From Cognatundibacterium squillarum (lineage in GTDB: Bacteria; Pseudomonadota; Gammaproteobacteria; Burkholderiales; Burkholderiaceae_D): a DNA stretch of 64,000 nt. Each line of letters begins with the position of its first letter. Positions within the stretch are counted from its first letter, which is position 1. Where the stretch lies: positions 1 through 64,000 of the forward strand of contig NZ_BMYU01000001.1 of assembly GCF_014652435.1 (NCBI RefSeq), written 5' to 3'. Position numbers and translations under genes: made by a program. Positions 1,658 to 60,281 of this stretch are shown in pieces. Below the pieces are notes generated by a model. That model saw nothing but the letters and a program-made list of their open reading frames with translations, did no database searches and was not told where the DNA came from.

Positions 1658-1869
1658 ATTCTCCAGCTAAATTTTTTGCAGGCGCTATTGTACGCCCCTA
1701 TGCCGTTTTACGGTGTAGTCAAACTAAAAACAAACACTCAGCACGGAAAAAGAGGGGAAATCCTGCCTGTATTCTGGTCTTTGAAACAGTTGCAAATCGG
1801 GATAATGACAGCATACGAAAGAAGTTTTTCTTCTGTTGCACGATATTGGCACTCAAAACGGGGTTGAGT

Positions 1870-4800
1870 ATGGACAAGGATCAGACACTTTTACATCGCA
1901 TGACACGCGGTTCCTTTGATGAGGAATTCGATGACAGCAGTGTATTTATGCATTCTTCCGGCTTGCTGGAATCGAATTCTCGGATTGATGTGAAGGGAAT
2001 CCGTGAGGCAATTGCCCGTGTCGAGGCACGGGCTGCACAAGCTGTTGCGGATCAGAAAGCTGCATCTCAACCGGCAGCGATAACGCCAGCCATGTCGGAG
2101 GTCACCCCGGACCCGGCAATGCTGGCGGCTGCGGAAACGAAGCGTCAGCAATTGAAGCAGCAACAGGAAGACGCACTGCGTCAGAAGCTCAGCCTTGAAG
2201 CCCGTGAGCGCGCCGATAAACAATGGCAACACGCTGCACCACTGCCTCCGGTTACCCCGATGCCGGCACCGGTAGTGCAATTGTCGTTGCCTGAAGAAGA
2301 GCATGCATCTGTTGCTGCGAACGCTGCGTTATCCCGTTTTACGCTGCAAGCGCAAGCACAGACAGCGCAGTCCCAGCCGGAAGACAGTCCGCTGACGGAA
2401 GAGCGACGCAAGATGGTGCAGATTCTGGAGCAGGAACATCTCGCTATTTCTCAGGCGCGCAGCGAATCTGAGCAGCGCGCACTGGAAGCCATCCAGATGC
2501 GCGTTCAGGCAGAGCTGGAACTGAAAGATGCCGCAGAAAAACGTGCTCAGGCGGAAGCGCAAGCGGCTGAAGCTGCGCGTGCACGCCGTGATGCCGAAGA
2601 GAAAATCCGTCTGATGACGGAAGAGCGCATCCGCACCGAAAAAGCATTGCAGGAAGCGGCAATGCAACAGATTGAATCTGCTGCCATGGCAGATCATCAG
2701 ATCAAAGCACGCTTGCAGGCAGAACAGCAAGCGCTGGCGGAAGCCGAGGCCCGTCGTCTGGCGGAAGCGGCAGCAACGGCAAATGCGGCTGCGCGTATGG
2801 AAGAAGAACAGCGTGCTGCGCGTATCGCACAGGAACGTGCGCAGGTTGAACAATCTGCACTGGAAATCGCTTGTGAGCAAGCCAATGCAGAACAGGAAGC
2901 TTTACAAGTCGCGGTACTGACAGCGCAACTGACAGGTCAGGCAAAACAGGCAGCGGAAGACAAACTGCAAATTGCGAAAGAACTGGCGGCGGCAGAAGAG
3001 CGCCGTTTGCGTGCGGAGCAAAATGCGGCTGCAGCACTGGCAGAGAAACTGGCGGCAGAACAACGTATTGCGACAGAGCTGGAATGCAAAGCGCAATCAG
3101 AGCGTGAACAGGCTGCAATGCTGGCGGAAAAAGAGGCAGCAGAACACGCAGCACGTATCGCGCAGGAAGCAGCGCTGGCGACAGCAAAACGTGAAGCAGA
3201 GCAGGCACAGCAACTGGCTGCTGTCAGTCAGCAGCGCGCAGCACTGGCGGCAGAACAGCAGCAAACCCGCGAAGCTTTGCTGGCGGCAGAATTGCAGACT
3301 GCACGTGAAGAACAGCAGGCGCTGGATTTACTGCAGGAAGCCGTCGAGACTGAAAAACTGAAGGCTGAAGCAGCACAGGATACCGTGCTGGCAGCACGCG
3401 AAAAAGCAGAAGCAATCGCGGCAGCGACCGAGGCACAGATTGCTGCGCGTAATACCGAACTGCAGGCCTTAGAGCAGGCGCGTGCACAGCAGGAGGCCGC
3501 AGAGCAAGCCCGTCTGGCTGCGGAACTCGAAGCTGCTGCACGTGAAGATGCTTTGCTGCATCAGGCGCAGCAAAAACAACTGGCAGAACAGGCTGCGGCG
3601 CTGGCTGCATTGCAGGCTGTGCAATCGGAGCAGGCAAATCAGGCCGAGCAATCGCGTTTGCAGGCAGAGGCACTCGCTGCACAGGCAATGCAGGAAAAGT
3701 TGGAACATGAGCAGGCACTGGCCGCAGTTTTGCTGGAAAAAGCAGAGCAGGAAAAAACACAGGCGGCATTGCTGGCACGCCGTCAGCATATTCAGGAAGA
3801 AGCGCGTATCGCACGCCGCGCACTGATCGATGCAGAGCAGGCAAGGGTTAGCAAGCTCGAAGAGCATGCCCGTCTGCAGCAAGACTATCTGCAACTGGCG
3901 CAGGCCCGTGCACAGGAAACGGAAGCGCTGAATCAGGTGCTGGCGCAAAAAGCAGATACAGAAGCCCGTACCCTGATCACAACGCAGGAAAATCTGCAGA
4001 CTGAACAGGCATTGCAGGCCGAACTGAATGCCCGCCTCGCGCTGGAACAAGCCAGTCTGGAAGCACGTCAGGCATCACTGGCGGCAGAACAACAGGCGCG
4101 TGAATTACTGGATCTGCGTGTGCAGGAAGAACAGTGTCTGCGTGCTGAGCAGGAGCTGATTCAGCAAGCGGAACTGGAGGCACTGGCTTTGTTGCAGCGT
4201 CGCAAAGAAGCTGCGCAACAACTGGCTGTGCTGGAGCGTGAAGCACTGCGCACTCAGCAGGAAAATGAACAGCAGTTGCAGGCACAACTGGCGGCGCAAC
4301 AACAGCGTCTGCAGGCAGAGCTTGAAGAGCGCGAGGCACAGCGTTTGCGCGCGGAAGCAGAGCAGATCGCCAGCGCGGCAGCGGCTGCCCGAGCAGAACG
4401 TGAGGCAGAGCTGGCGGCAATGGCGCAGGAACGTGCGCAGGCTGAACAACTGGCAGCGCAACTGGCTGACAGCAAGCTGGCTTCTGAGCAACGTCTGCGT
4501 GAACAGGCACGTGTGTTTGTCGCGACGCAGAAAAAAGCACTGGAACTGGTAGAAGAAAAACTGGCGAAAGTCTCGTTGCTGGCAGACACCGAAGCAGAAA
4601 AAGTACGTGCTGAAACCGAGGCGCTGGCACACACTGCCCGCGAACAGGCGATGGTGCAACAGGCCTTAGTAGCAGCCGACGCTGCGCGTGCAGAGGCTGC
4701 ACAGGCTGCCGCGTTTGCCGCCGCCAACGCACACACGGCAGAGCAGATCCGACTGGCAGAGGCAGCGCGCGCAGAAGCTGAGTGCAGCCTGCATCAGGAA

Positions 4801-6843
4801 CTGGCTGCAATTGCAGATCAGGAAGCTTTACTGGTTCGCGTGACAAACGAAAAACTGGCGCTGGCAGAACAATTGCACATCGCAACCGAGCAGCGTATTG
4901 CATCGGAAGAAGCCTTAGCAAAGGCTACTTCTGAACGCATGGCGGCCGAACAGGCGGCAAAAGCGGAAACGGATCGTCGCATAGAGGCAGCTTACCGTCA
5001 GGCAGCACTGGCACGTCAGAAAGCCAGTGCAGAGCAGGCTCGTCGTCTCGCGCTGGAGCAAGCCAATGCGGCTGCCGATGCAGCAATTCTTGCTGAACAG
5101 GCTGAAGCAGAAGCGCAGCAGCAACGTGCGGATGCGACACAGCAAAAGATTCGTTTGCTGCAGGAAAACACCGCGCTGGAACAAGCACGCGCCATAACGG
5201 AGCAAGAACTGGCAAAAGAGCTGAGTGCACGTCAGCACAGCGACCAGCAGGCGCTGCAGGCAATGCAGGCATGTGTTGCGCAAGAGGCTGCACTGGCAGC
5301 TGCCCAGGCGGAACGTGCCGCTGCAGAACAGCATGCACTGGAAATGACGCAAGCCAAACTGGCCGCAGAAAATGCAATGCTGGAACAGGCAAAACAGCAT
5401 GCGGAAATGCAGACGGCAGCCCAGCAGGCCGCATTGGAGAATCAGGAAAAAACAGCAGCATTGCTGCAGCTGGAACAGGCGCGCTTGCAGGCAGAACAGG
5501 CTGCGGCACAACATCTGGCAGAACGCATTCAGGCAGAACAGCAAGCGGCGTCTGCCGCTGCACAGGCGCAGATCGCTGAACAGCGACTGGCTAAAGCTGC
5601 AAGCGAAGCGGCAGCAGCTGCAGAGTTACAGCAACGTGCAGCACAGGAAAAAGCATCTGCACAGGAAGAAGCTGCCCGTTTATTGCAAATGGCAGCCGCG
5701 CAGGAACTGGAAGCCGCACAAATGGCGGAAGCCGCAGCACAGGAAGCCAGCCGCGTACTCGCGCTGCAGGCAGACAATGCAGAGCAGGCACGCCGCGCAC
5801 TGGCACTGGCAACGCAGCAACGTGAAACCGAACAGGAAATTCAGCGTCAACATGCAATGACGGTTGCCGCCGCAGAAGCCCGTCTGGCAGCAGAACATGC
5901 CTTGCTGGACAGCACTGAAATGCGCTTGCAGCACGAACAGAATCTGGCCCGTGAAAGTGAGGCGCGTCTGCAGGCAGAAGCACAGGCGAAACTGGCAGAA
6001 GACAGTCTGGCGCAGCAGGAACAGGCACTGGCAGCCGCCGCCAAAGCACGTGCAGAAGCCGCTGCCGCAGCAGAAGCACTCATTGCACAACGTATTGCGG
6101 AAGAGCAGCGCCTGATGGCGGAAAGTCTGGCGGTCGTTGCGAAGGAACAGGAAAAACTCGCAGCGTTGAAACAGGATCAGGCTGCGATTGCCGAAACAGC
6201 AGCCCGTACTGCGGCAATGGATGAAGAACATGCGGCGCTGGCGGATCTGATTCTGCAACGCCGTGAGGAACAGCAAGCTGCAACAGCCGCATTGCAGGCA
6301 GCACATCAGCATGTGGCGGAACTGAATCAGGCGGAAGTGGCAATGCAGGAATGGCTGCAGACGCAGGCAGAAAGCATGACCCTGCGTGCAATGCAGTTAC
6401 AGGCGATGGCAGAGCAGGCCGGTATCGAAGCGGACAGTCTGATTGCAGCACAGGCAATTCAGCGTGCAACACTGGAAAAAACACGCCGTGTTGCTGAACA
6501 GCAGGCGGAGGCAATGACCCGCGATGTACTGCGCAAGCTGCAGTACGAAGGTAACCGCGTGAACGGCTGGTCTGATCAGGTTCAGGCATTGCTGCAACAG
6601 GCCCCGGTGCAGTTTGACATGCCGGCGATGGCAGCGAACGATGCAAAGCGCAGCTGGCGTCCGGCGCTGGTGGCGGGTGCAGTGCTGACTGCGGGCGTGC
6701 TGGGTGTCGGTTTGCTGCATGTTGCCGGTCCGGCACAGGCAGTGGCAGCACCGGCTGTGGCCAAAGTGCAGGTCGTCAATGCACCTGCACAATCCTTGCC
6801 TTCACTGAAAATGTCTCTGACACTGAGCGCACCGGCACGCTGA
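1870..6843 (+). CDS. giant Ala/Glu/Gln-rich coiled-coil protein with C-terminal membrane anchor
   Basis: The protein has about 1657 residues. Roughly the first 60 residues are not coiled coil (SVFMHSSGLLESNSRI region). Residues of about 70 to 1570 are an almost unbroken run of Ala, Glu, Gln, Arg and Leu in heptad-like spacing, with recurring short units such as LAAEQ, AEQA and EARL. A short unique stretch (QYEGNRVNGWSDQVQALLQQ) precedes a single hydrophobic segment at about 1598-1620. A tail of about 37 residues, rich in Ala, Pro and Val, follows. A type II-like topology is likely, with the long rod in the cytoplasm and a short tail outside. The DNA is strongly repetitive (gcagaacaggc-like words). 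The ATG at 1870 is chosen; a TTG at 1846 would add eight residues. No enzymatic motif is visible. A scaffold or cytoskeletal role is inference; long TolA-like or SMC-like rods look similar by composition. Confidence 0.85.
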   Translation: MDKDQTLLHRMTRGSFDEEFDDSSVFMHSSGLLESNSRIDVKGIREAIARVEARAAQAVADQKAASQPAAITPAMSEVTPDPAMLAAAETKRQQLKQQQEDALRQKLSLEARERADKQWQHAAPLPPVTPMPAPVVQLSLPEEEHASVAANAALSRFTLQAQAQTAQSQPEDSPLTEERRKMVQILEQEHLAISQARSESEQRALEAIQMRVQAELELKDAAEKRAQAEAQAAEAARARRDAEEKIRLMTEERIRTEKALQEAAMQQIESAAMADHQIKARLQAEQQALAEAEARRLAEAAATANAAARMEEEQRAARIAQERAQVEQSALEIACEQANAEQEALQVAVLTAQLTGQAKQAAEDKLQIAKELAAAEERRLRAEQNAAAALAEKLAAEQRIATELECKAQSEREQAAMLAEKEAAEHAARIAQEAALATAKREAEQAQQLAAVSQQRAALAAEQQQTREALLAAELQTAREEQQALDLLQEAVETEKLKAEAAQDTVLAAREKAEAIAAATEAQIAARNTELQALEQARAQQEAAEQARLAAELEAAAREDALLHQAQQKQLAEQAAALAALQAVQSEQANQAEQSRLQAEALAAQAMQEKLEHEQALAAVLLEKAEQEKTQAALLARRQHIQEEARIARRALIDAEQARVSKLEEHARLQQDYLQLAQARAQETEALNQVLAQKADTEARTLITTQENLQTEQALQAELNARLALEQASLEARQASLAAEQQARELLDLRVQEEQCLRAEQELIQQAELEALALLQRRKEAAQQLAVLEREALRTQQENEQQLQAQLAAQQQRLQAELEEREAQRLRAEAEQIASAAAAARAEREAELAAMAQERAQAEQLAAQLADSKLASEQRLREQARVFVATQKKALELVEEKLAKVSLLADTEAEKVRAETEALAHTAREQAMVQQALVAADAARAEAAQAAAFAAANAHTAEQIRLAEAARAEAECSLHQELAAIADQEALLVRVTNEKLALAEQLHIATEQRIASEEALAKATSERMAAEQAAKAETDRRIEAAYRQAALARQKASAEQARRLALEQANAAADAAILAEQAEAEAQQQRADATQQKIRLLQENTALEQARAITEQELAKELSARQHSDQQALQAMQACVAQEAALAAAQAERAAAEQHALEMTQAKLAAENAMLEQAKQHAEMQTAAQQAALENQEKTAALLQLEQARLQAEQAAAQHLAERIQAEQQAASAAAQAQIAEQRLAKAASEAAAAAELQQRAAQEKASAQEEAARLLQMAAAQELEAAQMAEAAAQEASRVLALQADNAEQARRALALATQQRETEQEIQRQHAMTVAAAEARLAAEHALLDSTEMRLQHEQNLARESEARLQAEAQAKLAEDSLAQQEQALAAAAKARAEAAAAAEALIAQRIAEEQRLMAESLAVVAKEQEKLAALKQDQAAIAETAARTAAMDEEHAALADLILQRREEQQAATAALQAAHQHVAELNQAEVAMQEWLQTQAESMTLRAMQLQAMAEQAGIEADSLIAAQAIQRATLEKTRRVAEQQAEAMTRDVLRKLQYEGNRVNGWSDQVQALLQQAPVQFDMPAMAANDAKRSWRPALVAGAVLTAGVLGVGLLHVAGPAQAVAAPAVAKVQVVNAPAQSLPSLKMSLTLSAPAR

Positions 6844-6890: not shown

Positions 6891-7226
6891 ATATCCGGTC
6901 ATTGAATGAGGTTGTACTGATGTATGGCGCAGAGTTTTGCCCGACTTCGTGCCGGTTGCTCATCAGGCTGCCAATCGCCGGAAGACCGAAGTCCGGCGTG
7001 TGCGGCCGCTGAACTGCACGCTGAGTATGCAAGAATCGTCATTCGTGATTTACGGAGCCCCGGACTTTCTGCCGACGACCGCCGGATCGCTGTGCCAGAC
7101 TCCGCATTTGAGGCATTTTTGCCCCGAATTTGGCTTGCTGACGGATTTGCTGACGCTGACAGGCCGGAAACCTGTCAGTGAGTATGGATTGCAGATGGAA
7201 CGGGCGTCAGAGAACTGCTGAATATC
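6891..7226. other. intergenic stretch without a supported gene
   Basis: Short open frames on the plus strand here cross the dispersed repeat at 7025-7112 and have no convincing start or family pattern. Apart from that repeat I see no gene. The left part (6930-7020) is GC-richer and may be decayed repeat or gene sequence. Confidence 0.5.
7025..7112 (-). repeat. dispersed about 90-bp intergenic repeat, copy 1
   Basis: This copy is in the opposite orientation to those at 50.5, 51.6 and 57.3 kb. It contains the family core GGACTTTCTGCCGACGACC and GCCGGATCGCTGTGC and ends with CCGCATTTG. The end near 7025-7045 is the most diverged (TATGCAAGAATCGTC) relative to TATGCAGAACTCCGC in the others. Confidence 0.8.
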
Positions 7227-21617: not shown

Positions 21618-21633
21618 TCCTGTGCGCGTGGAT

Positions 21634-21720
21634 TGTGCAGGTATCCGCATCCGGCATTTCCGGAGAGCCGGACTTTCTGCCGACGACCGCCGGATCGCTG
21701 TGCAGAACACCGCATTTGAG
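21634..21720 (-). repeat. dispersed about 90-bp intergenic repeat, copy 2
   Basis: Same orientation as copy 1. It shares GGCATTTCCGGAGAGCC, GGACTTTCTGCCGACGACC, GCCGGATCGCTGTGC and CACCGCATTTGAG. It lies directly after ldcA. The rest of 21721-21877 shows nothing I can name. Confidence 0.85.
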
Positions 21721-21877
21721 CCTGTTTTGGTCAGTTTCGGGCTATTCCGGGCGATCCGGGGCTTAGTCTCAGCTGCTGACTCTGTCTGGCAGCATTAGCG
21801 CGTCAGATAGTTTTTCTGGCAAAGTTGTGATGAATGTCGCGATTTGCGCAAACCTGCAAACAGGTCAGTCGTTAAAA

Positions 21878-48419: not shown

Positions 48420-49634
48420 ATGCGTAGTATGTTGAAACAAACCCTGCCGCTGCTGTTATGCGGCAGTGTGCTCGCTGCCAGCCCCGCGCAGGCAGCGAAT
48501 GTCGTCGATTACGGCGATCCGAATGCGCCGCGTTTATGGCGGCAACTGGCGGCGCTGGAACGGCACGAGAGCAGGGAAGTGGTACGCATTCTGCAGCTTG
48601 GCGATTCGCATACGGCCGGTGATTATTTCACTCAGGCTTACCGCAGCCGTCTGCAACAACGCTTCGGCAACAGCGGCCCGGGCTGGATTACTCCCGGTTA
48701 CGTCAAAAATCAGCGCTCCGCCCAGTTTCTGATGAAAATGAGCGGCGACTGGAATATGCGCATCAGTCGCGGCAATCCTGAGAACCTGCCCGTCGGCGGC
48801 ATCGGAAACTTACCGGCACCCGGCGCACAGGCAGAACTGGTGCCGAAATTCCCGCTGAATGGCATGTATAAAATCTCGGTCTGGTCACGTAAAGTGAATG
48901 ATCAACCGGTATCGCCGTGGAAACTGACACTGCCGAACGGGGACGTACGCGAACTCTCGCCGCCGATCAGCGCAGACTGGCAAATGTCCTATGTGATCGG
49001 CAACGGCAATGATCTGAACAGCTTTTATCTGAAAGCGCAGGACAACCCCGCAGAACTGGGTGGCATTGCGATTGATGCGCTGAACCCCGGTGTCACGGTC
49101 GATGCGCTCGGCATCGTCGGCGCGATGCAGCGCGTGACACTGCGCTGGCAGCAGGAAGCCGTCAGCGATCAGTTACGCTGGCGTCAGCCGGATTTAATTG
49201 TGCTGGCTTACGGCACCAATGAAGCCTTCGATCCGAAGCCGGACTGGGATGCCTATTATCAGGATCTCAAAAACTCGATCCGCCTGCTGCGCCAGAAAGC
49301 GCCATCCGCCGCGATTCTGATGATCGGTGCACCGGACTCCGCACGCCGCAACGGCCCCGGTGATTACGTTGGCTGCCGCTTCCGTCAGCCCAGCGGCCTG
49401 AACCATGTCAAAACAATACAGCGGCAAGTGGCGATCGAAGAAAAAATCCTGTTCTGGGACTGGATGGCAGCCATGGGCGGCACTTGCGCGATTCAGCGCT
49501 ATGCCAGCGCCACGCCACCGCTGGCAGGGCAAGACCTGATCCATTTCACGCAGGATGGCTATGAAATGAATGGTGAAGCGTTTTACGAAGCGCTGATTCA
49601 GGCCTATCAGCGCGGACGGCAGGGCAAGGGATAA
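48420..49634 (+). CDS. exported SGNH-family protein
   Basis: The protein (404 aa) has a Sec signal peptide (LPLLLCGSVLAASPAQA). The SGNH core is present: ILQLGDSHTAGDYF (Ser), VLAYGTNEAFDPKPDWD (Asn block) and DLIHFTQDGYEM (Asp-His). LPVGGIGNLPAPG and SVWSRKVNDQPVSPWKL are further domain segments. It resembles PatB/AlgX-like acetyl acceptor enzymes that act with an MBOAT. Translation is tightly linked to the previous gene. A role as the final O-acetyltransferase is inference. Confidence 0.85.
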   Translation: MRSMLKQTLPLLLCGSVLAASPAQAANVVDYGDPNAPRLWRQLAALERHESREVVRILQLGDSHTAGDYFTQAYRSRLQQRFGNSGPGWITPGYVKNQRSAQFLMKMSGDWNMRISRGNPENLPVGGIGNLPAPGAQAELVPKFPLNGMYKISVWSRKVNDQPVSPWKLTLPNGDVRELSPPISADWQMSYVIGNGNDLNSFYLKAQDNPAELGGIAIDALNPGVTVDALGIVGAMQRVTLRWQQEAVSDQLRWRQPDLIVLAYGTNEAFDPKPDWDAYYQDLKNSIRLLRQKAPSAAILMIGAPDSARRNGPGDYVGCRFRQPSGLNHVKTIQRQVAIEEKILFWDWMAAMGGTCAIQRYASATPPLAGQDLIHFTQDGYEMNGEAFYEALIQAYQRGRQGKG

Positions 49635-50423: not shown

Positions 50424-50493
50424 AAGGGTAGGGACGAGGCCTCTGGTAAGCATCTGCCACAGTTCACAAAGCCGTTGAAACGCCATTTTGAAG

Positions 50494-50582
50494 ACCAAAT
50501 GCGGACTTCAGCACAGCAATCCGGCGGTCGTCGGCAGAAAGTCTGGCTGTCCGGAAATGCCAGATGCGGAGTTCTGCATAAC
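50494..50582 (+). repeat. dispersed about 90-bp intergenic repeat, copy 3
   Basis: Reads CCAAATGCGGACTTCAGCAC, then GGCGGTCGTCGGCAGAAAGT, then GAAATGCCAGATGCGGAGTT and CTGCATAA. It lies just outside the DUF817 gene and in the same orientation as copies 4 and 5. Confidence 0.9.
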
Positions 50583-50607
50583 AGCAGTGCCGGACGACTG
50601 AGCGGGC

Positions 50608-51450
50608 TTACTCCGCCACATGCACATGCTGCTTGATGTGTTTCAGATTCGCGATCAGCGTAAAACTCATGATCACCAGCAGCGACCATGAACTCCATTT
50701 GCCCAGATGCACGGTAGACCACGCGCCGATCTGATTCGGATAGCGCCAGATGCCGAACAGCGTGCCGATGTTTTCCGCCAGCCAGATAAAAAAGCCGATC
50801 AGAATGAAACTCAGCAGCAAAGGCATGCGCCGGTCAGTATCCAGCGGACGGAAAATGACGGTTGAACGGGCATACAGACCCAGTGCACAGGCCGCCAGAT
50901 ACCAGCGATAGTCACCCAGAAAATGGTGCGTGAAAAAATTCAGATACATCAGCACCGCAATCAGTCCGGCCATCCAGTACGGTGGATGATGGCGTATGCG
51001 CAAATCAAACAAACGCCATGCCTGAATAATGTAACTGCCCACCGCAGCGTACATAAAGCCGCTGAACAGTGGAACACCCCAGAGTTTTGTCAGCCCCGGC
51101 TCAGGATACGCCCACGACTGAATCTTACCCGACACCTTAAACACTTCCAGTGCAAATCCCAGAACGTGAAACAGGCTGATCGCCTTCAGCTCATCCAGCG
51201 TTTCCAGCTTGCTCCACACCATCCCCGCCTGAATCGCCAGCGCCAGTATCAGCAACACATCGTAACGCGCCACACCCAGCACACCGGCGCGCGGCACCAG
51301 CAATACCGAGGCGAAAAACAAACCCACAAACAAACAGGAGCGTGCTTCTTTCAAACCAAAAAACCAGAACTCCCGCCAAAACCGCTGCCAGCCTGCCAGT
51401 TGACGGGGACGGGAATTCATCAGAAACGCATCAATACGGGCCAGTGACAT
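50608..51450 (-). CDS. DUF817 membrane protein
   Basis: The protein (280 aa) has about eight hydrophobic segments and the DUF817 pattern: FGLKEARSCLFVGLFF, LGFALEVFKVSGKIQSWAYPE, LFSGFMYAAVGSYI and IWLAENIGTLFGIWRYPNQ. It is an inner-membrane protein of unknown function. The ATG at 51450 is chosen since upstream codons are not membrane-like. It lies between repeat copies 3 and 4, divergent from rdrA, and is probably not part of RADAR. Confidence 0.88.
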   Translation of the reverse strand: MSLARIDAFLMNSRPRQLAGWQRFWREFWFFGLKEARSCLFVGLFFASVLLVPRAGVLGVARYDVLLILALAIQAGMVWSKLETLDELKAISLFHVLGFALEVFKVSGKIQSWAYPEPGLTKLWGVPLFSGFMYAAVGSYIIQAWRLFDLRIRHHPPYWMAGLIAVLMYLNFFTHHFLGDYRWYLAACALGLYARSTVIFRPLDTDRRMPLLLSFILIGFFIWLAENIGTLFGIWRYPNQIGAWSTVHLGKWSSWSLLVIMSFTLIANLKHIKQHVHVAE

Positions 51451-51603
51451 GCAAAAGACTTTCACAAAACGATGATAGGAAATGCAATCGTTAAATCGCA
51501 AGCAAGCGATTCTACGCAGACCATCACCGCAACAGCAATTTAGCGGCACTGGACGGCAGAGGTCGCAGCGGAGCGCAGCCAGCCCGTCAGCAGGCATTTT
51601 CAG

Positions 51604-51693
51604 CCCCAAATGCGGTGTTCAGCACAGCCATCCGGCTGTCGTCGGCAAAAAGTCTGGGGCTTTGGAAATGGCAGATGCTGAGTTCTGCACAAT
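51604..51693 (+). repeat. dispersed about 90-bp intergenic repeat, copy 4 (left flank of RADAR)
   Basis: Reads CCCCAAATGCGGTGTTCAGC, CATCCGGCTGTCGTCGGCAA and GGAAATGGCAGATGCTGAGT. Two related end segments, AAATGCGGTGTTCAGCACA and AGATGCTGAGTTCTGCACA, form direct repeats inside the unit. Confidence 0.9.
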
Positions 51694-51876
51694 AGGTGTG
51701 ATTGTTGGCTGGCATGAAAATAGCCTGCTAAAGAGGCGTGGTGCCTCATGAACCATTGAGCATTTTCTTTAGTTTGGAACGAAGCAGGGCACCAGTGGAA
51801 AGCTCGTTTGTCGAGAAGAAAAGCAACATAACCGGAAATGTTCTATGCATTTCTTAAGGTGTCAAATGGTATAAAA

Positions 51877-51954: not shown

Positions 51955-54477
51955 ATGACCCAGAACAAGCGATACATTCCCATTGATGCTGTTGAAAGTG
52001 CTGTATTACCCGATGCCAATACGCTACTGCCAATCAAAGTATATGAGCAGCTGGCACAAAGGATCGGTGAAGCCGTGAAAAAAGCGGAAGCAGCGAAAGG
52101 TAAATCGCTGAACCAGTTGCGCGAACACAATGCCATTTCCATTGACGGTGCGCGTGGTACTGGTAAGACGGCGGTACTGGTCAATCTGAAGAGTTATCTG
52201 AATACGGATAAGCACAAGGATATTCTGAGCAAAGTCCATATTTTTGATCCGGTAGATCCTACTTTGTTAGAAAACGGCGAATCCTTATTTCTGCATATCA
52301 TTGTTGCTGCTGTGCTGCATGACAATGAAGTGAAAGAAGCGCAAAGAAAAGACCCCAACAAAGCCCGTCACCTGAACCAGACTCTGGAAAAGCTCGTCCA
52401 TTCTCTGGAATCGGTCGAGACTCAGCATGAGCGTCACGGCATGGACAAGGTACGTGCCATGTACAGCAATAAGCAACTGGCGGACTGCGTGCAGGATTTT
52501 TTCCGCGAAGTGCTGGGATTGTTGGGCAAACAATTGCTGATTCTGCCAATTGACGATGTTGATACCTCGTTAAACCGCGCCTTTGAAAACCTCGAAATCG
52601 TACGCCGTTATCTGGCCACGCCTTATGTTTTACCTATCGTTTGCGGTGACCGTTCACTATACGACGAAATTACCTGGCGCGATTTTCATGGGCGACTGAC
52701 GAAAGATTCCAGTCATAAGTCAGATAATGCTTACGATCGCGCTGTCGAGTTGGCAGAAGAATATCAGCGAAAAATTCTGCCGTTTCCTCGTCGCTTAACC
52801 ATGCCGGAAGTAAATAGCTATTGGCAACAAAGCGATATTTTTTTACGCGATGGGCAACAAGCGGAATTAATGCCGCTGCGGAATTTCATAGCCTGGCTCG
52901 AAATTTTTCTGGTCGGGCCGGTGAATGGGTTGGAAGGAAGTCGTTTGCCACTGCCGATTCCGTCTATTCGCGCTTTAACCCAGCTCTTGCAGCATTGCCG
53001 GGAATTCATTCCTCAATTACCAGACACAATCCGTTCTGCGAAAAGCGAACTGGAGGTTCGCAAGCACTGGCCGTGTTTGCTTTCTGATGGTGAAGCTTCG
53101 GGCAAAAATGCTACTGCGGAGCAGTTGGCAAAATATTTTTGTTTTGAGCCTAAGGCCGGCGCAGCTTATCTGATACTACTTGCCAAACAGCACTGGCAGG
53201 ACTGGTCGGATCGGTCTTTGCTGCGGCCTAGTATTCTGGACACACCTTTGTTCGATCCATTTGCACATGCTGAGGCGAGATTTGAGTTATTCGATAGGGA
53301 AGATGACCTTTCAGCTTGGCCGATTTTATTAAATGGACGCTTGCCGGAAGAATGGCTGTTTGGTATCCGATCACAAGTAACCATGTTGCCGTATCCGGTG
53401 GCGGAAATTGGCGTCAATACAAGCAAGGGTTGGAAGTACACCGATGAAATTCATCGTCTTTCGATTCAAGATCTGACGGAAGATCGTAAAAATAAGGCGA
53501 GATTTTTGATTGCGCTGCTGACACAACGCAACTTTTACACCAACGCGAAACAAACCATGCTGCTGAATATTGGTCGCATTTTCGAATTGCTGATGGCCAG
53601 TATTGTCGGTCGGATAAGTGAGGATGATATTTATGCGATCATGGGACGTGCACCATTCTTTTCTGCTGCGGCACTGGCGCCGACCAAAACCATCACGATT
53701 GATGATAGGGATAAAACTACTAACGCTGCAGATGAAGACTTAGAGCAAAAGTATGAAGCTATTCCGGACTCAGTTATACCTGAAATAGTCCAGACACTGT
53801 GTCGTGATATTAATAAGTGGTACGACAGTCATCATGTTAGCGAATTGGAGTTGTCTCCTTGGTTGGTTTACAAGGTATTCAATAAAGTATTTAGCCAGGT
53901 AGCAAGTAATAAAATAGACCCGAACGGTATGAAGGATATTGGAACGGCATTGAATACTGCTGCGTATGCGTTCTATTCAACCTGGTTTGCCTTTGGTAGT
54001 TTTGAAAAGGGGGAATTGTTTGGCTTAGAAAATGTGGTAGCTACAACCAACATCCATCCTGAAAATCTTAAAAATTATACAGGTAATGACCAGTTTAATA
54101 TCAATGTCAAACCAATATTGGATGCATTTAATAGAAATAGTTCACTTAGGGCAGTGAGTATCGTGCTGGCAGAGCACCCGCTGAAGAAGTGGATTGATGA
54201 AGTAATTAAGTTAAATTGGCCAAAGAAAGATTCTCTTCCAAATAATAAGATTTTAAATAAACCAATCAAAGATACTTCAAAAGTTTGGTTGTGCAAGACA
54301 TTAAATATTAGCCCGGTTCCAGCAAGATTGTCACAAACACGAATTGAAAAAGCTTTAGAGCATAAAAATTTGGATGAATGCCGCGAATTACTGCATTCAG
54401 GAATAAAGATTTATACTGATGGCGATGATGTGATTATTACTCTTAGACATGCAATTCAAAATCACTTGGCTAGGTGA
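51955..54477 (+). CDS. rdrA: RADAR ATPase RdrA
   Basis: The protein (about 840 aa) is a KAP-like STAND-type AAA+ ATPase. It has Walker A SIDGARGTGKTAVLVNL (Gly65 to Thr72), Walker B LLILPIDDVDTS (Asp200, Asp201) and the sensor segment PYVLPIVCGDRSLYDEITW. The C-terminal half (about 450-840) has no named domain but matches the size of RdrA. With the adenosine-deaminase gene next to it, this is the RADAR anti-phage pair; RdrA forms a ring that associates with the RdrB shell. The ATG at 51955 is chosen; an in-frame TTG at 51907 is possible. The 3' third is AT-richer than flanking core genes. The next gene starts five bases later. Confidence 0.92.
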   Translation: MTQNKRYIPIDAVESAVLPDANTLLPIKVYEQLAQRIGEAVKKAEAAKGKSLNQLREHNAISIDGARGTGKTAVLVNLKSYLNTDKHKDILSKVHIFDPVDPTLLENGESLFLHIIVAAVLHDNEVKEAQRKDPNKARHLNQTLEKLVHSLESVETQHERHGMDKVRAMYSNKQLADCVQDFFREVLGLLGKQLLILPIDDVDTSLNRAFENLEIVRRYLATPYVLPIVCGDRSLYDEITWRDFHGRLTKDSSHKSDNAYDRAVELAEEYQRKILPFPRRLTMPEVNSYWQQSDIFLRDGQQAELMPLRNFIAWLEIFLVGPVNGLEGSRLPLPIPSIRALTQLLQHCREFIPQLPDTIRSAKSELEVRKHWPCLLSDGEASGKNATAEQLAKYFCFEPKAGAAYLILLAKQHWQDWSDRSLLRPSILDTPLFDPFAHAEARFELFDREDDLSAWPILLNGRLPEEWLFGIRSQVTMLPYPVAEIGVNTSKGWKYTDEIHRLSIQDLTEDRKNKARFLIALLTQRNFYTNAKQTMLLNIGRIFELLMASIVGRISEDDIYAIMGRAPFFSAAALAPTKTITIDDRDKTTNAADEDLEQKYEAIPDSVIPEIVQTLCRDINKWYDSHHVSELELSPWLVYKVFNKVFSQVASNKIDPNGMKDIGTALNTAAYAFYSTWFAFGSFEKGELFGLENVVATTNIHPENLKNYTGNDQFNINVKPILDAFNRNSSLRAVSIVLAEHPLKKWIDEVIKLNWPKKDSLPNNKILNKPIKDTSKVWLCKTLNISPVPARLSQTRIEKALEHKNLDECRELLHSGIKIYTDGDDVIITLRHAIQNHLAR

Positions 54478-54482
54478 TCTGA

Positions 54483-57242
54483 ATGCTTCATCGGACTTTG
54501 ACTGAACATGCCGCCGAGTGCTTCTTCGGCGATGAAAAGTTGGCAGTATGGCTTTGGAACGAATTGCTAAAGCCAGTTGATGCGCTGGAGTCAGATCGCT
54601 GGCATCAGCTGCAAGAGAATTTCTACCATTTGCTGGTGGAAGGCATCGAAGCGCGTTATCCGCGTGAACACCGGCTGACGGATGTTCGGCAATTGATGGG
54701 GCGCATGCTTGATGGGGATCTGCTGCTGACACCGGCACTGCCGTGGCTGGACGAGCTGCAGCAACGGCTCATGCAACGCAATGGTGATTTGCTGTGCTAC
54801 CGCGAAGGGGAAGTACGGGCATATGTGCGCCTGGCGGCGGGGATGGATCCGACGCTACTGGCGGGATGGCATTTCGCAAGCTGGTTAGCGGAAATTTCAC
54901 ACCCTAAAGTCAATGACATTCGTCGCATTGTGTCGGCGCAAACGGCTTTCTTCGCGCCGCCGGGCAACCCGTCATTTCCATTTGCCGAGGGGCATGTGCA
55001 TTTCTGGGGTGTTACTGCGGATAGTGCGATTCTTGATGAGTTTCTTCTGTCCGATGGCGCCTTGTCTCTTAAAGAAAAGGCGGGTTTGTGGCAGCGCGAA
55101 CAACATGATGGTCTGCAGATTTTATTGCAACGTGCGCGGCAATTGCTGGTGCTGCTGTTAGAGCCTCGAGAGCAGCACTGTATCTCACATGGTACGCAAA
55201 GTGTCTGGCCGTCGCATTCGGCGAGTTGGCCGCAGCATCTTGCGCGTCTTACGCTTGCCACACATGACCCCTGTCGTCACCCAGAGTGGGATTTGCTGGC
55301 CAGCCGCCTGTCTGCCGCGAACACTGGCAGCGCTGATTGGCTGCTTGGCGAGTTTGCTCAGGCGATGAGTCGTGGTGACGCCAATCGCTGGCTGTGGCTG
55401 TATATCTATCTGTGTGCGTGCTACAGCGATGCAGAGACACATCCGTTGCAACGTGCGGCGATTTTGTGCTTTTGGCAGACAGTCAATCAGCTGCGTCGCA
55501 GCCTGATCATGGATGGGCAAGGTCTTACACGCTTTGCGGAGCGGTATTTCGGCTCGGCAATGCATCGTAAGTCAAAACGGCATGATAATTTTCGGCGTCT
55601 CTGGTCTTCCAACGCTGATGTAGCAGAAATTAAGTCTGGGCCAGATGCATTTTCCGGAGAATTTACGCGCTCATTTACCAGGGGAATGACAAAAACAGCG
55701 GAATTGAGCCAACCAAAACCACCGTACGTTTTTGGCGAGCATGAAATTAAGCTCGACAGTAAAGCGTTGAGCTACTTACAGAATCTGGAGCGATGGCAGT
55801 TCTGTGGCCATTTCTCCCGTTCACAACCTCATAAGCAAAACCAACGTCCCAAGGCTGAAAGCAATCAGCTGTGGAAAGATGCTGAAAAACTGATGTGTAA
55901 CCTGCAAAGTCGGTCTGGCTGGAACACATCAGAATTTCTGGGCGGTAAACTGAACCCGAATTTTCATTTTCAGCCTGCCAGATGGTTTCGCGGGCTGGAT
56001 GTGGCGGGCGATGAAAATGCACTGAAAATCGAATGGTTTGCGCCGGTACTGCGCTGGTTGCGCTGTGGCTTTAAGTCACGGCCGGATGGTGAGCGCGCCA
56101 GTACGGGTTTTCATCTGAGCATTCATGCCGGTGAGGACTACGCGCATCCTGCATCGGGTATGCGCCATATTGACGAGACCGTACGTTTTTGCGAAATGCG
56201 CGAAGGTGACCGGCTGGGCCATGCACTGGCGCTGGGTATTGAGCCGAAACAATGGGCAGCAAGGCAGGGGGAGATGGTGCTGCCGCTGGATGAGCATCTG
56301 GATAATCTGGTGTGGTTGTGGCATCACGCAGGCGTATTGAGTGGTGTTTTGCCGCTGGCGCAGCAGGTTTTGCCCTTGTTAGAGCGCCGCATTGTGCGCT
56401 TCTGGCGGTTGTCACAATGGTGGCAACCAAGCGATTTGATGGCGGGCGTTGCTGCAAATCCGCAGCCAGATTCCAATTTGTCTGAGGGGTTCGAGACTTC
56501 GCCCTTGTGCCACGCAAGGCCGGACGATTTGTATCAGGCATGGTGGCTGCGGCGTAATTGTTACTATCGACTGAATCAAGTTCAAGATAGCTGGCAAATC
56601 ACTGCGCAAGAACAGTGCGCCTTACCTGATCATCAAGAATTAAGCGAGCGCCGTACGCTGGCAAGTAAGCTGTATCAGGCACGTCATACTTGGCTTGCGG
56701 CGCTGAAGGAGGCGCCGATGGTTATTGTGCGAATGGGCGATGAAGCAGCAGCGCATGGTGGATTCCATTCAAAGGCTGGCGCCAGAGCAGGCCTCGGAAG
56801 TCGCAAAGACATACTGGAAGATGTTGATACACCGGCCGAGCTGGATTTCATGTATGCACTGCAAGACTGGTTACTTACCGAGTACGATAAGCTGGGTCTG
56901 ATCATTGAGGCGAATCCGACATCCAATGTGTATATTGCCCGACTGAAATCACACGCAGAGCATCCGATTTTTCGCTGGCATCCACCGGATGAATCAATAC
57001 TCGACACCGGCGCTGCCGCCAATCTTTACGGGCTGCGCCGAGGGCCGGTTCGTGTATTGGTAAATACTGACGATCCCGGAATTATGCCGACCACACTGCT
57101 TACGGAGTTCTTGCTGCTACGCGAAGCTGCGCTGGAGCAGAAGGTCGGTCGCACCGTTGCAGAACGCTGGCTGGAGACTTTGCGTCAGTACGGAATCGAG
57201 CAGTTTCATCGCAATCATTTGCCGGTGTTTGAACCGGTTTGA
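54483..57242 (+). CDS. rdrB: RADAR adenosine deaminase RdrB
   Basis: The protein (919 aa) is a large adenosine/AMP-deaminase-like enzyme. Metal and catalytic motifs are spread over the length: EGHVHFWG (His171, His173), IHAGEDY (His548, Glu551), RLGHALAL (His580), EANPTSN (809-815) and NTDDPGI (Asp863, Asp864). All are intact. In studied RADAR systems RdrB deaminates adenosine in RNA or ATP/dATP on infection and causes abortive defence. The inserted regions between the motifs, compared with normal deaminases of about 340 residues, are a RADAR feature. It is co-transcribed with rdrA. No RdrC/RdrD-like membrane accessory gene is adjacent. Confidence 0.93.
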   Translation: MLHRTLTEHAAECFFGDEKLAVWLWNELLKPVDALESDRWHQLQENFYHLLVEGIEARYPREHRLTDVRQLMGRMLDGDLLLTPALPWLDELQQRLMQRNGDLLCYREGEVRAYVRLAAGMDPTLLAGWHFASWLAEISHPKVNDIRRIVSAQTAFFAPPGNPSFPFAEGHVHFWGVTADSAILDEFLLSDGALSLKEKAGLWQREQHDGLQILLQRARQLLVLLLEPREQHCISHGTQSVWPSHSASWPQHLARLTLATHDPCRHPEWDLLASRLSAANTGSADWLLGEFAQAMSRGDANRWLWLYIYLCACYSDAETHPLQRAAILCFWQTVNQLRRSLIMDGQGLTRFAERYFGSAMHRKSKRHDNFRRLWSSNADVAEIKSGPDAFSGEFTRSFTRGMTKTAELSQPKPPYVFGEHEIKLDSKALSYLQNLERWQFCGHFSRSQPHKQNQRPKAESNQLWKDAEKLMCNLQSRSGWNTSEFLGGKLNPNFHFQPARWFRGLDVAGDENALKIEWFAPVLRWLRCGFKSRPDGERASTGFHLSIHAGEDYAHPASGMRHIDETVRFCEMREGDRLGHALALGIEPKQWAARQGEMVLPLDEHLDNLVWLWHHAGVLSGVLPLAQQVLPLLERRIVRFWRLSQWWQPSDLMAGVAANPQPDSNLSEGFETSPLCHARPDDLYQAWWLRRNCYYRLNQVQDSWQITAQEQCALPDHQELSERRTLASKLYQARHTWLAALKEAPMVIVRMGDEAAAHGGFHSKAGARAGLGSRKDILEDVDTPAELDFMYALQDWLLTEYDKLGLIIEANPTSNVYIARLKSHAEHPIFRWHPPDESILDTGAAANLYGLRRGPVRVLVNTDDPGIMPTTLLTEFLLLREAALEQKVGRTVAERWLETLRQYGIEQFHRNHLPVFEPV

Positions 57243-57315
57243 GGTGGGAATTCGCTGGGGCTGAATAGGCGGTGTTTTGGAGGCTGTTAATTTGCCTCGC
57301 AACGTGCTTTTTTTA

Positions 57316-57404
57316 CCCCAAATGCGCTGTTCAGCATAGCCATCCTGTGGTCGTCGGCAGAAAGTCTGGTTCTCTGGAAATGGCGGATGCGGAGTTCTGC
57401 ATAA
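57316..57404 (+). repeat. dispersed about 90-bp intergenic repeat, copy 5 (right flank of RADAR)
   Basis: Reads CCCCAAATGCGCTGTTCAGC, GGTCGTCGGCAGAAAGTCTG, GGAAATGGCGGATGCGGAGT and CTGCATAA. It begins 74 bases after the rdrB stop and is in the same orientation as copy 4. Between it and the terminator nothing else is seen. Confidence 0.9.
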
Positions 57405-57439
57405 CAAGCGTGGATAATAGTGAATGTGGAGCGGTCATA

Positions 57440-57538: not shown

Positions 57539-60217
57539 TTACAGGGGTTTCACGCAGAGTTTGAAGTCTTCGTCTTCTTCGTATTTCATCACCTGAAATT
57601 CGAGGCTGCGCATCAGTTTCAGCATGCTGCTGTTTTTGGTCAGCACCAGTCCTTCGATTTTTTGCAGGCCGCGCTGGCTGGCGACGTCGATGATGGATCG
57701 CATCATGCGGGAGCCAAGGCCTTGTCCGCTGAATTCGTCGGCGATCAGCAGAGAAAATTCGCAGGTGGTTTTGTCGGGGTTGGTCACGTAGCGCGAGACG
57801 CCGATGATTTTTTCGGTTTCGGTGAAGCCGCCTTCCTGATCCGGTTTGCGTTCGCGGTAGACCGCCACCAGCGCCATTTCGCGGTCGTAGTCGATCAGCG
57901 TGAATTTGGCCAGCATGCGGTCAGACAATTCTTTAATCGACGATACAAAGCGGAAATAGCGGCTTTCTTCCGACAGGCCGCGTACCAGCGCCTGCAGCAT
58001 GTCTGCATCATGCGGATGCAAGGGACGCACCAGATAGTGCGAACCGTCGCGCAGCGGGTATTCCATTTCGCTGCCGGCGGGGTAGGGCGAAATCGCCAGA
58101 TGTTCGTAATTGCCGGGTTTCAGGGTGACGTTTTCCACCACAATGCGTGCATCCACCACAATCGCGCCTGCGGAATCGACGATGACCGGATTGATATCCA
58201 TTTCTTTCAGTTGCGGCAGCGCGCACACCATTTCCGACACGCGCAGCAGAATTTGTTCGATGGATTCGCGGTGTACCGGCGCATAACCGCGCCACGCATC
58301 GAGTATGTGCGAAGAGCGCACGCGCTGGATCAGACGGTGGGCTAAGAACTGGTTCAGCGGGGGCAGTTCCAGACTGCGGTCCGCGATCAGCTCAATCATG
58401 ATGCCGCCGATACCGAAGGAAATCACGGGGCCGAATAATTCATCACTAGTGACGCCGATAAACAGTTCGCGGCCTTCGGTTTTGCCGGCCATGTTTTGTA
58501 TCGTGACGCCATTGATACGCGCATCCGGACGCAGTTTGCTGACACGCGCCATCATGGTTTGCCAGGTTTCGCGCACCGCTGCCGCATTGGCGACATTCAG
58601 TGCCACGCCTTGTACATCGGATTTATGGCTGATCTCTGCGGAGTCAATTTTTAACGCGACCGGATAACCAAGCTGATTAGCAACCAGCATTGCTTCATTG
58701 TTGCTGCGCGCGAGGATGGTTTTGGTCACCGGAATATGGAAGGCCGACAGCAGTGCTTTGGACTCCATTTCGGTCAGCACTTTGCGGCGTTCAGCCAGCA
58801 CGCTTTCTATCAGTATCCTTGCGCCTTCAATATCCGGTTCTGCCAGTTGCGATAAGGAAGAGGGCACTTGCCGCAGCAATTGCTGGTTCTGATGGAACAG
58901 GGAAATGTGGTGGAAGGCATCGACAGCGGCTTCCGGTGTGCGGAAGCTCGGTACATTGGCTTTGTACAGAATGCGGCGCGCTTCAATCACGCGGTCGTCA
59001 CCCATCCAGCAACTGATGATGGTTTTGCCGGCCAGCGCCTGTTCTTCTGCCAGTGCCTGCGCCACGGCAGAACTGTCTGCGCCCGGCGTGGGTGCGAGCA
59101 TGACCAGTATGCCGTCGATCTCGCTGCATTGCGCGCAGGCTTTGATCGCGGCGCGGTAATGTTCTGCATTCGCATCCAGACCCAGATCGAGGATGGAATC
59201 AATCTTTGCAAGCGGCGACAATTGCGGTTTTAAGGTCCCAGCAGAGGCCGCTGGCAGACTTGCCAGCGATAAGCGCAATTCATTGACCGCATCTGCCGCC
59301 AGCACTGCAGGCCCGCCACCATTGGAAATAATCGCCAGACGACGACCCATCGGCAAATACGGCGAGGACAGACACTTAATCGCCGCAAACATTTGCACCA
59401 TCGAACCCACACGTACCGCACCGGCACGCTGCAAGGCGGCATCAAAAATCGCATCGCTGCCCGCAATATTGCCGGAATGGGTGAGGGCGGCGCGGGAGCC
59501 GTCTTCTTCACGGCCGGATTTCAGTACGATCACCGGCTTCGCATTTGCCGCTGCGCGCAGAGAACTCATAAAGCGCCGCGCATGGCGTATGCTTTCCAGA
59601 TACACGACAATGCTGCGCGTATCGCGGTCTTCCGCCAGAAAATCCAGCACCTGTGCGATATCGACCGCAGTATTGCTGCCCAGTGTAATCAGTGAAGAAA
59701 AACCGATGCCGCTTTTTTCTGCCCAGTCCAGCACGGAACTGGCGAGTGCACCGGATTGCGACACCACGGCGATATGGCCGGGGCGCGCCAGTTTGCCCAT
59801 CACGCTGGCATTCAGTAAGGCTTTCGGACGCTGGAAACCCATGCTGTCCGGTCCCAGTAAATGAATCTGATGCTGTGCGGCAATCGCATACAAACACGCT
59901 GCCAGCGCTGCATCCACACCTTGCGATAACACGACTGCCGCCTTGCACTGTATGCGTCCGGCCACTTCAAGCGCATTCGCAATTTCATCATTCGGCAAGG
60001 CAATCAGCGCCAGATCGGCTTTCGATGCCGCCAGATCGCCCAGCGTGCCGGTCATGCTGCTGTCTAAAAAGCTGACCGGCCCCTGAAAGCCACCGCTTTC
60101 CAGATCTTTCAGTAACTGAGCCGCCAGATCATTCAGACTGTCCGGCTGCGCAGGATTGCCTGCAAAAACCACCAGCGAACGCGGTGAAAACAGATTAGAA
60201 AGATAGTGTTTGTCCAT
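57539..60217 (-). CDS. Pat-type protein lysine acetyltransferase (NDP-forming acyl-CoA synthetase-like plus GNAT)
   Basis: The protein (about 892 aa) joins an ADP-forming acyl-CoA synthetase-like body to a C-terminal GNAT domain (about 720-892). The body has the CoA-binding fold SLVVFAGNPAQPDS, GPDSMGFQRP, SQSGALASSVLDWA and an ATP-grasp region with YPVALKIDSAEISHKSDVQGVALN. The GNAT part has VYRERKPDQEGG, and LIADEFSGQGLGSRMMRSI as the acetyl-CoA loop. This is the architecture of YfiQ/Pat enzymes that acetylate lysines of acetyl-CoA synthetase and others. The ATG at 60217 starts MDKHYLSNLFSPRS. It lies 64 bases after the deacetylase gene. Confidence 0.9.
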   Translation of the reverse strand: MDKHYLSNLFSPRSLVVFAGNPAQPDSLNDLAAQLLKDLESGGFQGPVSFLDSSMTGTLGDLAASKADLALIALPNDEIANALEVAGRIQCKAAVVLSQGVDAALAACLYAIAAQHQIHLLGPDSMGFQRPKALLNASVMGKLARPGHIAVVSQSGALASSVLDWAEKSGIGFSSLITLGSNTAVDIAQVLDFLAEDRDTRSIVVYLESIRHARRFMSSLRAAANAKPVIVLKSGREEDGSRAALTHSGNIAGSDAIFDAALQRAGAVRVGSMVQMFAAIKCLSSPYLPMGRRLAIISNGGGPAVLAADAVNELRLSLASLPAASAGTLKPQLSPLAKIDSILDLGLDANAEHYRAAIKACAQCSEIDGILVMLAPTPGADSSAVAQALAEEQALAGKTIISCWMGDDRVIEARRILYKANVPSFRTPEAAVDAFHHISLFHQNQQLLRQVPSSLSQLAEPDIEGARILIESVLAERRKVLTEMESKALLSAFHIPVTKTILARSNNEAMLVANQLGYPVALKIDSAEISHKSDVQGVALNVANAAAVRETWQTMMARVSKLRPDARINGVTIQNMAGKTEGRELFIGVTSDELFGPVISFGIGGIMIELIADRSLELPPLNQFLAHRLIQRVRSSHILDAWRGYAPVHRESIEQILLRVSEMVCALPQLKEMDINPVIVDSAGAIVVDARIVVENVTLKPGNYEHLAISPYPAGSEMEYPLRDGSHYLVRPLHPHDADMLQALVRGLSEESRYFRFVSSIKELSDRMLAKFTLIDYDREMALVAVYRERKPDQEGGFTETEKIIGVSRYVTNPDKTTCEFSLLIADEFSGQGLGSRMMRSIIDVASQRGLQKIEGLVLTKNSSMLKLMRSLEFQVMKYEEDEDFKLCVKPL

Positions 60218-60281
60218 GATGTTCAGTGTTCTCAGTGAAGACTTCAGCAATGTCAGTGTGTTGCAGGCTTCAGGCAGGCAA

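Follow-up and report, generated by a model that had tools for sequence, protein, structure and literature searches.

Three subtypes of the RADAR anti-phage system have been described, standalone, Csx27-associated and SLATT-associated (PMC7699616). In the E. coli system, for which structures are available (8FNT, 8FNV and 8FNW), RdrA forms a heptameric AAA+ ring that docks on a dodecameric RdrB shell via a crown belonging to the N-terminal domain, and nearly all contacts between the two proteins run through this crown (PMC9994260). Conversion of ATP/dATP to ITP/dITP upon infection has been reported for the E. coli and C. rodentium systems; the C-terminal helical domain of RdrA is hypothesised there to be the sensor, and what RADAR senses is described as an open question (PMC9994260).

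The locus studied here lies in a 64,000-nt stretch of the Cognatundibacterium squillarum genome (the window). We consider it probable that it is a standalone RADAR, horizontally acquired by a genome that also carries a SLATT-associated RADAR, and that the C-terminal half of its RdrA is a swappable low-GC module likely to serve in trigger recognition. The E. coli RADAR shares with it the ATPase and deaminase motifs and the rdrA-rdrB tandem, but is distant: RdrA matches with E 4e-9 (8hr7; 4.7e-9 for 8fnt) and over residues 29-283 only, RdrB matches with E 5.9e-19, and the window RdrB has 919 residues versus 799 in E. coli. RADAR chains were the sole matches for both window proteins in a PDB sequence search at E 1, and S. 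suis RdrA (8FNU) gave no match to window RdrA at this threshold.

Closest to the window are two other operons. The RADAR of Aquaspirillum serpens DSM 68 (L004) has an identical gene order, 79% identity in RdrB and 81% in the N-terminal part of RdrA, but its RdrA C-terminal part is only 35% identical and 211 nt separate its genes. It also has a 284-aa ORF (L004 10669-11523) that overlaps the end of rdrB, lacks a PADLOC match and has only sub-threshold Pfam matches; the ORF appears hydrophobic by eye and is a possible third RADAR component. In Chromobacterium aquaticum DSM 19852 (L005), where tblastn found no SLATT gene at the RADAR locus, the order of similarity is turned around: compared with Aquaspirillum, RdrB is farther from the window (72%), whereas the RdrA C-terminal part is nearer (58%; N-terminal part 82%), and the trees conflict accordingly.

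The RADAR operon of the window

The original prediction described an intact ATPase gene followed five bases later by a gene for a 919-residue deaminase-like protein, and the ORF coordinates confirm this arrangement, with rdrA and rdrB in tandem on one strand and 5 nt between the rdrA stop and the rdrB start. The features of the operon are:

51955..54477, + strand: rdrA, 840 aa, ATG start, RADAR ATPase; NF041743 847.6 bits (cut-off 600), PDLC02216 1181 bits
52147..52170, + strand: Walker A, GARGTGKT (RdrA 65-72), aligned with E. coli RdrA
52282..52524, + strand: approximate crown insertion of RdrA (~residues 110-190), placed by alignment of E. coli RdrA, limits approximate
52534..52563, + strand: Walker B, LLILPIDDVD (RdrA 194-203), aligned with E. 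coli RdrA
53035..54474, + strand: RdrA C-terminal part (361-840), with low GC3, identity drop and tree conflict; apparently exchanged part and candidate sensor
54483..57242, + strand: rdrB, 919 aa, ATG start, RADAR adenosine deaminase; NF041744 1038.7 bits (cut-off 800), PDLC02219 1525 bits
54993..55001, + strand: putative zinc motif HVH (RdrB 171-173), assigned by pattern and conservation only
56124..56138, + strand: HAGED (RdrB 548-552), zinc His and catalytic Glu, aligned with H498 and E501 of 8fnw
56205..56222, + strand: GDRLGH (RdrB 575-580), third zinc His, aligned with H530 of 8fnw
57063..57080, + strand: NTDDPG (RdrB 861-866), deaminase Asp motif, by alignment to E. coli RdrB; pattern in 11 of 13 RdrB

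Both proteins match the NCBIfam RADAR equivalog profiles above cut-off and PADLOC agrees. Judged by these scores and motifs, the locus is a complete RADAR anti-phage system, in the minimal two-gene form that had been proposed. The metal and catalytic motifs foreseen for RdrB are present as HVH, HAGED, GDRLGH and NTDDPG. Its H548, E551 and H580 align with H498, E501 and H530 of E. coli RdrB (residues counted across alignment gaps), which are zinc and catalytic residues (PMC9994260). The HxH pattern occurs in 12 of the 13 RdrB examined, the thirteenth (G301) being without its N-terminal part. For RdrA, the description as a KAP/STAND-like ATPase with Walker motifs held for the motifs, while the family label is only weakly borne out by Pfam (KAP_NTPase 19.2 bits, cut-off 20; nSTAND3 18.1 bits, cut-off 27.2). 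The crown was placed on the basis that K150/E151 of E. coli RdrA align with ~residues 134-135 of window RdrA. AlphaFold monomer models from 3-row alignments had mean pLDDT values of 38.8 and 31.5, too low for a structural comparison.

An RdrD-like partner was said not to be adjacent, in agreement with tblastn, by which three SLATT proteins matched nothing in the window (E 1e-3), and with the lack of any + strand ORF of at least 80 aa between 57242 and 57538 in the ORF list. As tblastn brought up no SLATT gene in the window, the locus looks like the standalone subtype, judged by that search and the ORF list. The upstream neighbour of rdrA is a DUF817 gene (50608-51609) on the opposite strand, without PADLOC match, which lies between two copies of a dispersed repeat and within the same inserted stretch as RADAR. 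Counting the own genome, 11 of 39 genomes of the genus have a DUF817 gene, with other surroundings in both that were examined, G011 and G042. Farther away, a 1665-aa ORF (1846-6843) lies in a stretch with strong AT skew (~0.3-0.4) and raised GC.

Probable acquisition at this site and a second RADAR

In the window, ~7.9 kb containing a 202-aa ORF, the DUF817 gene and RADAR lie between an acyl-CoA-synthetase-like gene (57539-60250) and a gene at 48420-49634. Among the 38 congeners scanned (39 genomes with the own one), G011, G001 and G053 have the most similar copy of the flanking gene, and in these three genomes the two flanking genes are only 56-79 bp apart, i.e. the site is empty. Five congeners were compared around the flanking gene, and the other two, G009 and G002, have a different neighbour and no RADAR there. 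RdrB matches occur in five of 43 genomes of the genus (own included), with a SLATT gene beside RdrB in the other four; the near relatives of window RdrB, in Aquaspirillum serpens, Chromobacterium aquaticum and G275, are outside the genus. Because of the empty site in three congeners and these outside relatives, RADAR was likely acquired at this site by horizontal transfer. Seven plasmid records match RdrB; no match was found in phage records, nor in IMG/VR by exact peptide patterns.

A dispersed repeat of ~93-107 nt accompanies the locus:

51594..51700, + strand: dispersed repeat, copy upstream of rdrA (middle of three)
57306..57412, + strand: dispersed repeat, copy downstream of rdrB (82% identity with 51594..51700)

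Further copies are located at 50483-50589, 21632-21724 and 7048-7114. Three copies frame the DUF817 gene and RADAR, the middle one sharing 80% and 82% identity with the outer two, where 0.41 copies would be expected (P of at least three = 0.009; density from ~108 kb of the own genome, test chosen post hoc). Genome-wide, 40 matches were scored of 259 first-look candidates, and similar short direct repeats were seen by eye at both ends. Repeat-mediated entry of RADAR is not claimed, given the divergence of the outer copies and how common the repeat is. The copies at the locus had no Rfam match, and no match to the repeat was found in the loci of 16 relatives at E 1e-4; a lone Rfam match near the locus was dismissed (28.9 vs gathering score 73).

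The AT-rich 3' third of rdrA, previously taken as a sign of recent transfer, is real (GC by thirds 0.473, 0.471 and 0.380, vs 0.539 for rdrB), but the step from GC to recent transfer was rejected. GC is lower in rdrA than in rdrB in 12/12 operons, from hosts with GC of 0.34-0.67 (the twelve are not independent, G001, G011 and G053 being near relatives), and GC3 drops from the N- to the C-terminal part of rdrA in all except the Salmonella plasmid copy (11/12). Over the 12 operons, mean flank GC exceeds that of rdrB by 0.002 and that of rdrA by 0.112, i.e. rdrB tracks the host on average. The low GC is thus a trait of the gene family and not a mark of recent transfer, and cannot date one; the transfer itself is likely on the other evidence given above.

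The same genome carries a second RADAR (L006 13019-19184 = C1:521018-527183, minus strand) in which rdrA and rdrB are accompanied by a SLATT gene (PF18183, 40.1 bits vs cut-off 25). PADLOC scores are 380.5 bits for RdrA and 674.5 bits for RdrB, and the RdrA, at 517.2 bits, does not reach the 600 bits of the NCBIfam cut-off. The two loci share the RdrA-RdrB core, but are only 34% identical in RdrB, 40% in the RdrA N-terminal part and 20% in the C-terminal part, and a SLATT gene was found at the second alone. Among 11 genomes with an RdrB match (one weak, G036), this genome alone has two RADAR loci. Relative to a homologous dicarboxylate symporter gene, the second locus and the SLATT-type RADARs of G001, G011 and G053 are all located on one and the same side; in the own genome and in G011, further genes separate symporter and RADAR. 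Because of this common position, the second locus may represent the genus's resident RADAR. Titles and abstract beginnings in one open-access literature collection yielded no report of two RADARs per genome or of RdrA exchange. The presence of a standalone and a SLATT-associated RADAR in one genome makes the subtypes comparable within a single host.

Exchange of the RdrA C-terminal part

Seven close operons were available, in two clades. Segment identities were calculated for 11 operons (without G053), while 12 were used for the trees, the RdrA-C comparison among congeners and the GC comparison. Left out of the pair counts were G005 (no rdrA on the contig), G301 (rdrB fragment), G036 (E 9.4e-11), the plasmid matches H3-H7, the E. 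coli copies and G132 (identical to the Aquaspirillum genome L004).

The first clade consists of G001 and G011, two different species that carry RADAR at a common site, and G053, whose RADAR occupies that chromosomal site too. The rdrA genes of G001 and G011 are 86-99% identical per 90-nt segment up to codon ~285, after which identity is 34-61% to the end of rdrA, followed by one mixed segment (62%); non-homologous flank forced into the same alignment gives 35-52%, which is the baseline for unrelated DNA. From codon ~25-36 of rdrB onward, identity is again 89-100%, placing the breakpoints in rdrA at ~codon 285 and in rdrB at ~codon 25. At the protein level, the three operons have RdrB that are 95% identical and RdrA C-terminal parts that are only 27-33% identical. 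G053 differs from the other two across nearly all of rdrA, beyond the C-terminal part (N-terminal part 68-69%, C-terminal part 28-33% identical to G001/G011). It groups with the second RADAR of the window's genome in the RdrA-N and RdrA-C trees (79/97 and 100/99), and with G001/G011 in the RdrB tree (99/99). A common G001+G011+G053 group is rejected by AU test for RdrA-N (p 0.009) and RdrA-C (p 0.0004), and so is the pairing of G053 with the second RADAR for RdrB (p 0.0015); for RdrA-C, the pair G001+G011 remains compatible with the data (p 0.072). As read from these alignments and trees, the three operons have one rdrB and three different RdrA C-terminal parts. A 948-aa ORF with Sel1 repeat and DUF1444 matches adjoins the G011 RADAR (L048 15679-18525) and is missing there in G001 and G053.

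The second clade comprises the operons of the window, Aquaspirillum, Chromobacterium and G275. In all six pairs, the RdrA N-terminal part is 79-83% and RdrB 72-79% identical. The C-terminal parts are 58% identical between the window and Chromobacterium and 59% between Aquaspirillum and G275, and only 33-39% across these pairs, with the drop located at ~residue 360 of window RdrA. The last ~90 residues of window RdrA are 13-34% identical even to Chromobacterium. The RdrA-C tree places the window with Chromobacterium (99/99) and rejects window+Aquaspirillum (lnL difference 197), while the RdrB tree places the window with Aquaspirillum, at 81/95, which is not strong. RdrB rejects window+Chromobacterium (p 0.018) and Aquaspirillum+G275 (p 0.006). 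The RdrA-N tree leaves the quartet unsplit (p 0.09-0.34). The clades compared in the tests were chosen with the identities already in view, which makes the p values lenient. A swap of the C-terminal part within the window's clade is the simplest reading; two old C-terminal lineages reassorted on a common chassis would give the same pattern.

Judged by identities and topologies, the C-terminal half is replaced in both clades while the half with the ATPase and crown largely stays together with RdrB. Each of the 12 RdrA C-terminal parts has a match of E 1e-20 or better to one or more of the others, so they are divergent versions of a single domain. Of 399 genomes of the order, four had a C-terminal match (E 1e-6 or better), all four together with an RdrB match, and no standalone C-terminal part was seen outside RADAR. 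Since the matches lie only alongside RdrB, the exchange, within these 399 genomes, would have been between RADARs and not with free-standing genes. The rdrB type of the Salmonella plasmid is present in 23 of 5426 E. coli genomes (21 over at least 80% of its length) and the corresponding rdrA in 21, all at 99% or more. In these 21 genomes, which have another RADAR type, rdrA showed no variation and exchange was not visible, given how uniform the copies are. One of the two partial rdrB copies, in E. coli ET826 (L078 5249-6767), retains only the last third of the gene, beside an IS1 element.

Possible function of the exchanged part

From family membership and the intact motifs, window RdrA is predicted to form an AAA+ ring that would dock on the RdrB deaminase shell via the crown in its N-terminal half, and upon infection the complex would convert ATP/dATP to ITP/dITP, stopping phage replication. 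Recombination between RADARs would replace the C-terminal half of RdrA, with the ATPase-crown half and RdrB largely staying together. The C-terminal half would recognise a phage-derived trigger and its exchange would re-aim the system; as the constant part includes the crown and the exchanged part the C-terminal lobe, docking and catalysis would persist while recognition changes. Polymorphic toxins likewise combine a constant N-terminal part with a recombining C-terminal part, which is a toxin, whereas that of RdrA is a candidate receptor within the ATPase of a defence system. More specifically, RdrA could be a polymorphic receptor with an interchangeable AT-rich recognition cassette on a constant chassis of ATPase-crown half and RdrB, with crossovers in conserved rdrA stretches and near the rdrB start, and the window operon would be such a mosaic; we regard this fuller picture as evenly balanced between being right and wrong.

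The exchange could have a different benefit, namely escape from phage inhibitors or a changed complex geometry, which we consider possible but rather unlikely. To our knowledge no RADAR inhibitor has been described, which counts against the escape reading. The G001/G011 exchange includes the first ~25 rdrB codons, and that the C-terminal part acts as sensor is itself hypothetical (PMC9994260). The four C-terminal helices of S. suis RdrA flip outward into an interface between proteins, but docking on RdrB in E. coli maps to the crown, in the unexchanged half (PMC9994260). Improbable is a decayed or silent RADAR in the window, which the retention of a second RADAR by the genome would accommodate; neither ORF is truncated, the motifs sought are present, and RdrB aligns over its whole length with its Chromobacterium and Aquaspirillum counterparts.

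Improbable, too, is that the C-terminal half was never exchanged and merely evolves faster, under weak constraint or diversifying selection. It is less conserved than the N-terminal part in 55/55 pairs of 11 operons, and RdrA conservation is reported to be limited outside the ATPase site (PMC9994260). However, identity between G001 and G011 falls from ~90% to the level of unrelated DNA within a few codons and recovers equally abruptly in rdrB, point mutation at the G001/G011 divergence would keep synonymous sites alike, and the topology itself, beyond branch lengths, changes between RdrB and RdrA-C. An unrelated AAA+ protein next to an ordinary adenosine deaminase, as the weak Pfam AAA/ADA matches might suggest, is refuted by the RADAR equivalog scores (1038.7 bits vs cut-off 800 for RdrB, against 12.7-20.8 bits vs cut-offs of 216.55-510 for four ordinary ADA models).

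Returning to trigger recognition by an exchangeable C-terminal half, operons that have a common rdrB (95%) and different RdrA C-terminal parts (27-33%) at one site are ready-made tests of a sensor role. If the C-terminal part is the sensor, the operons of G001, G011 and G053 should differ in phage range, and not in effector.
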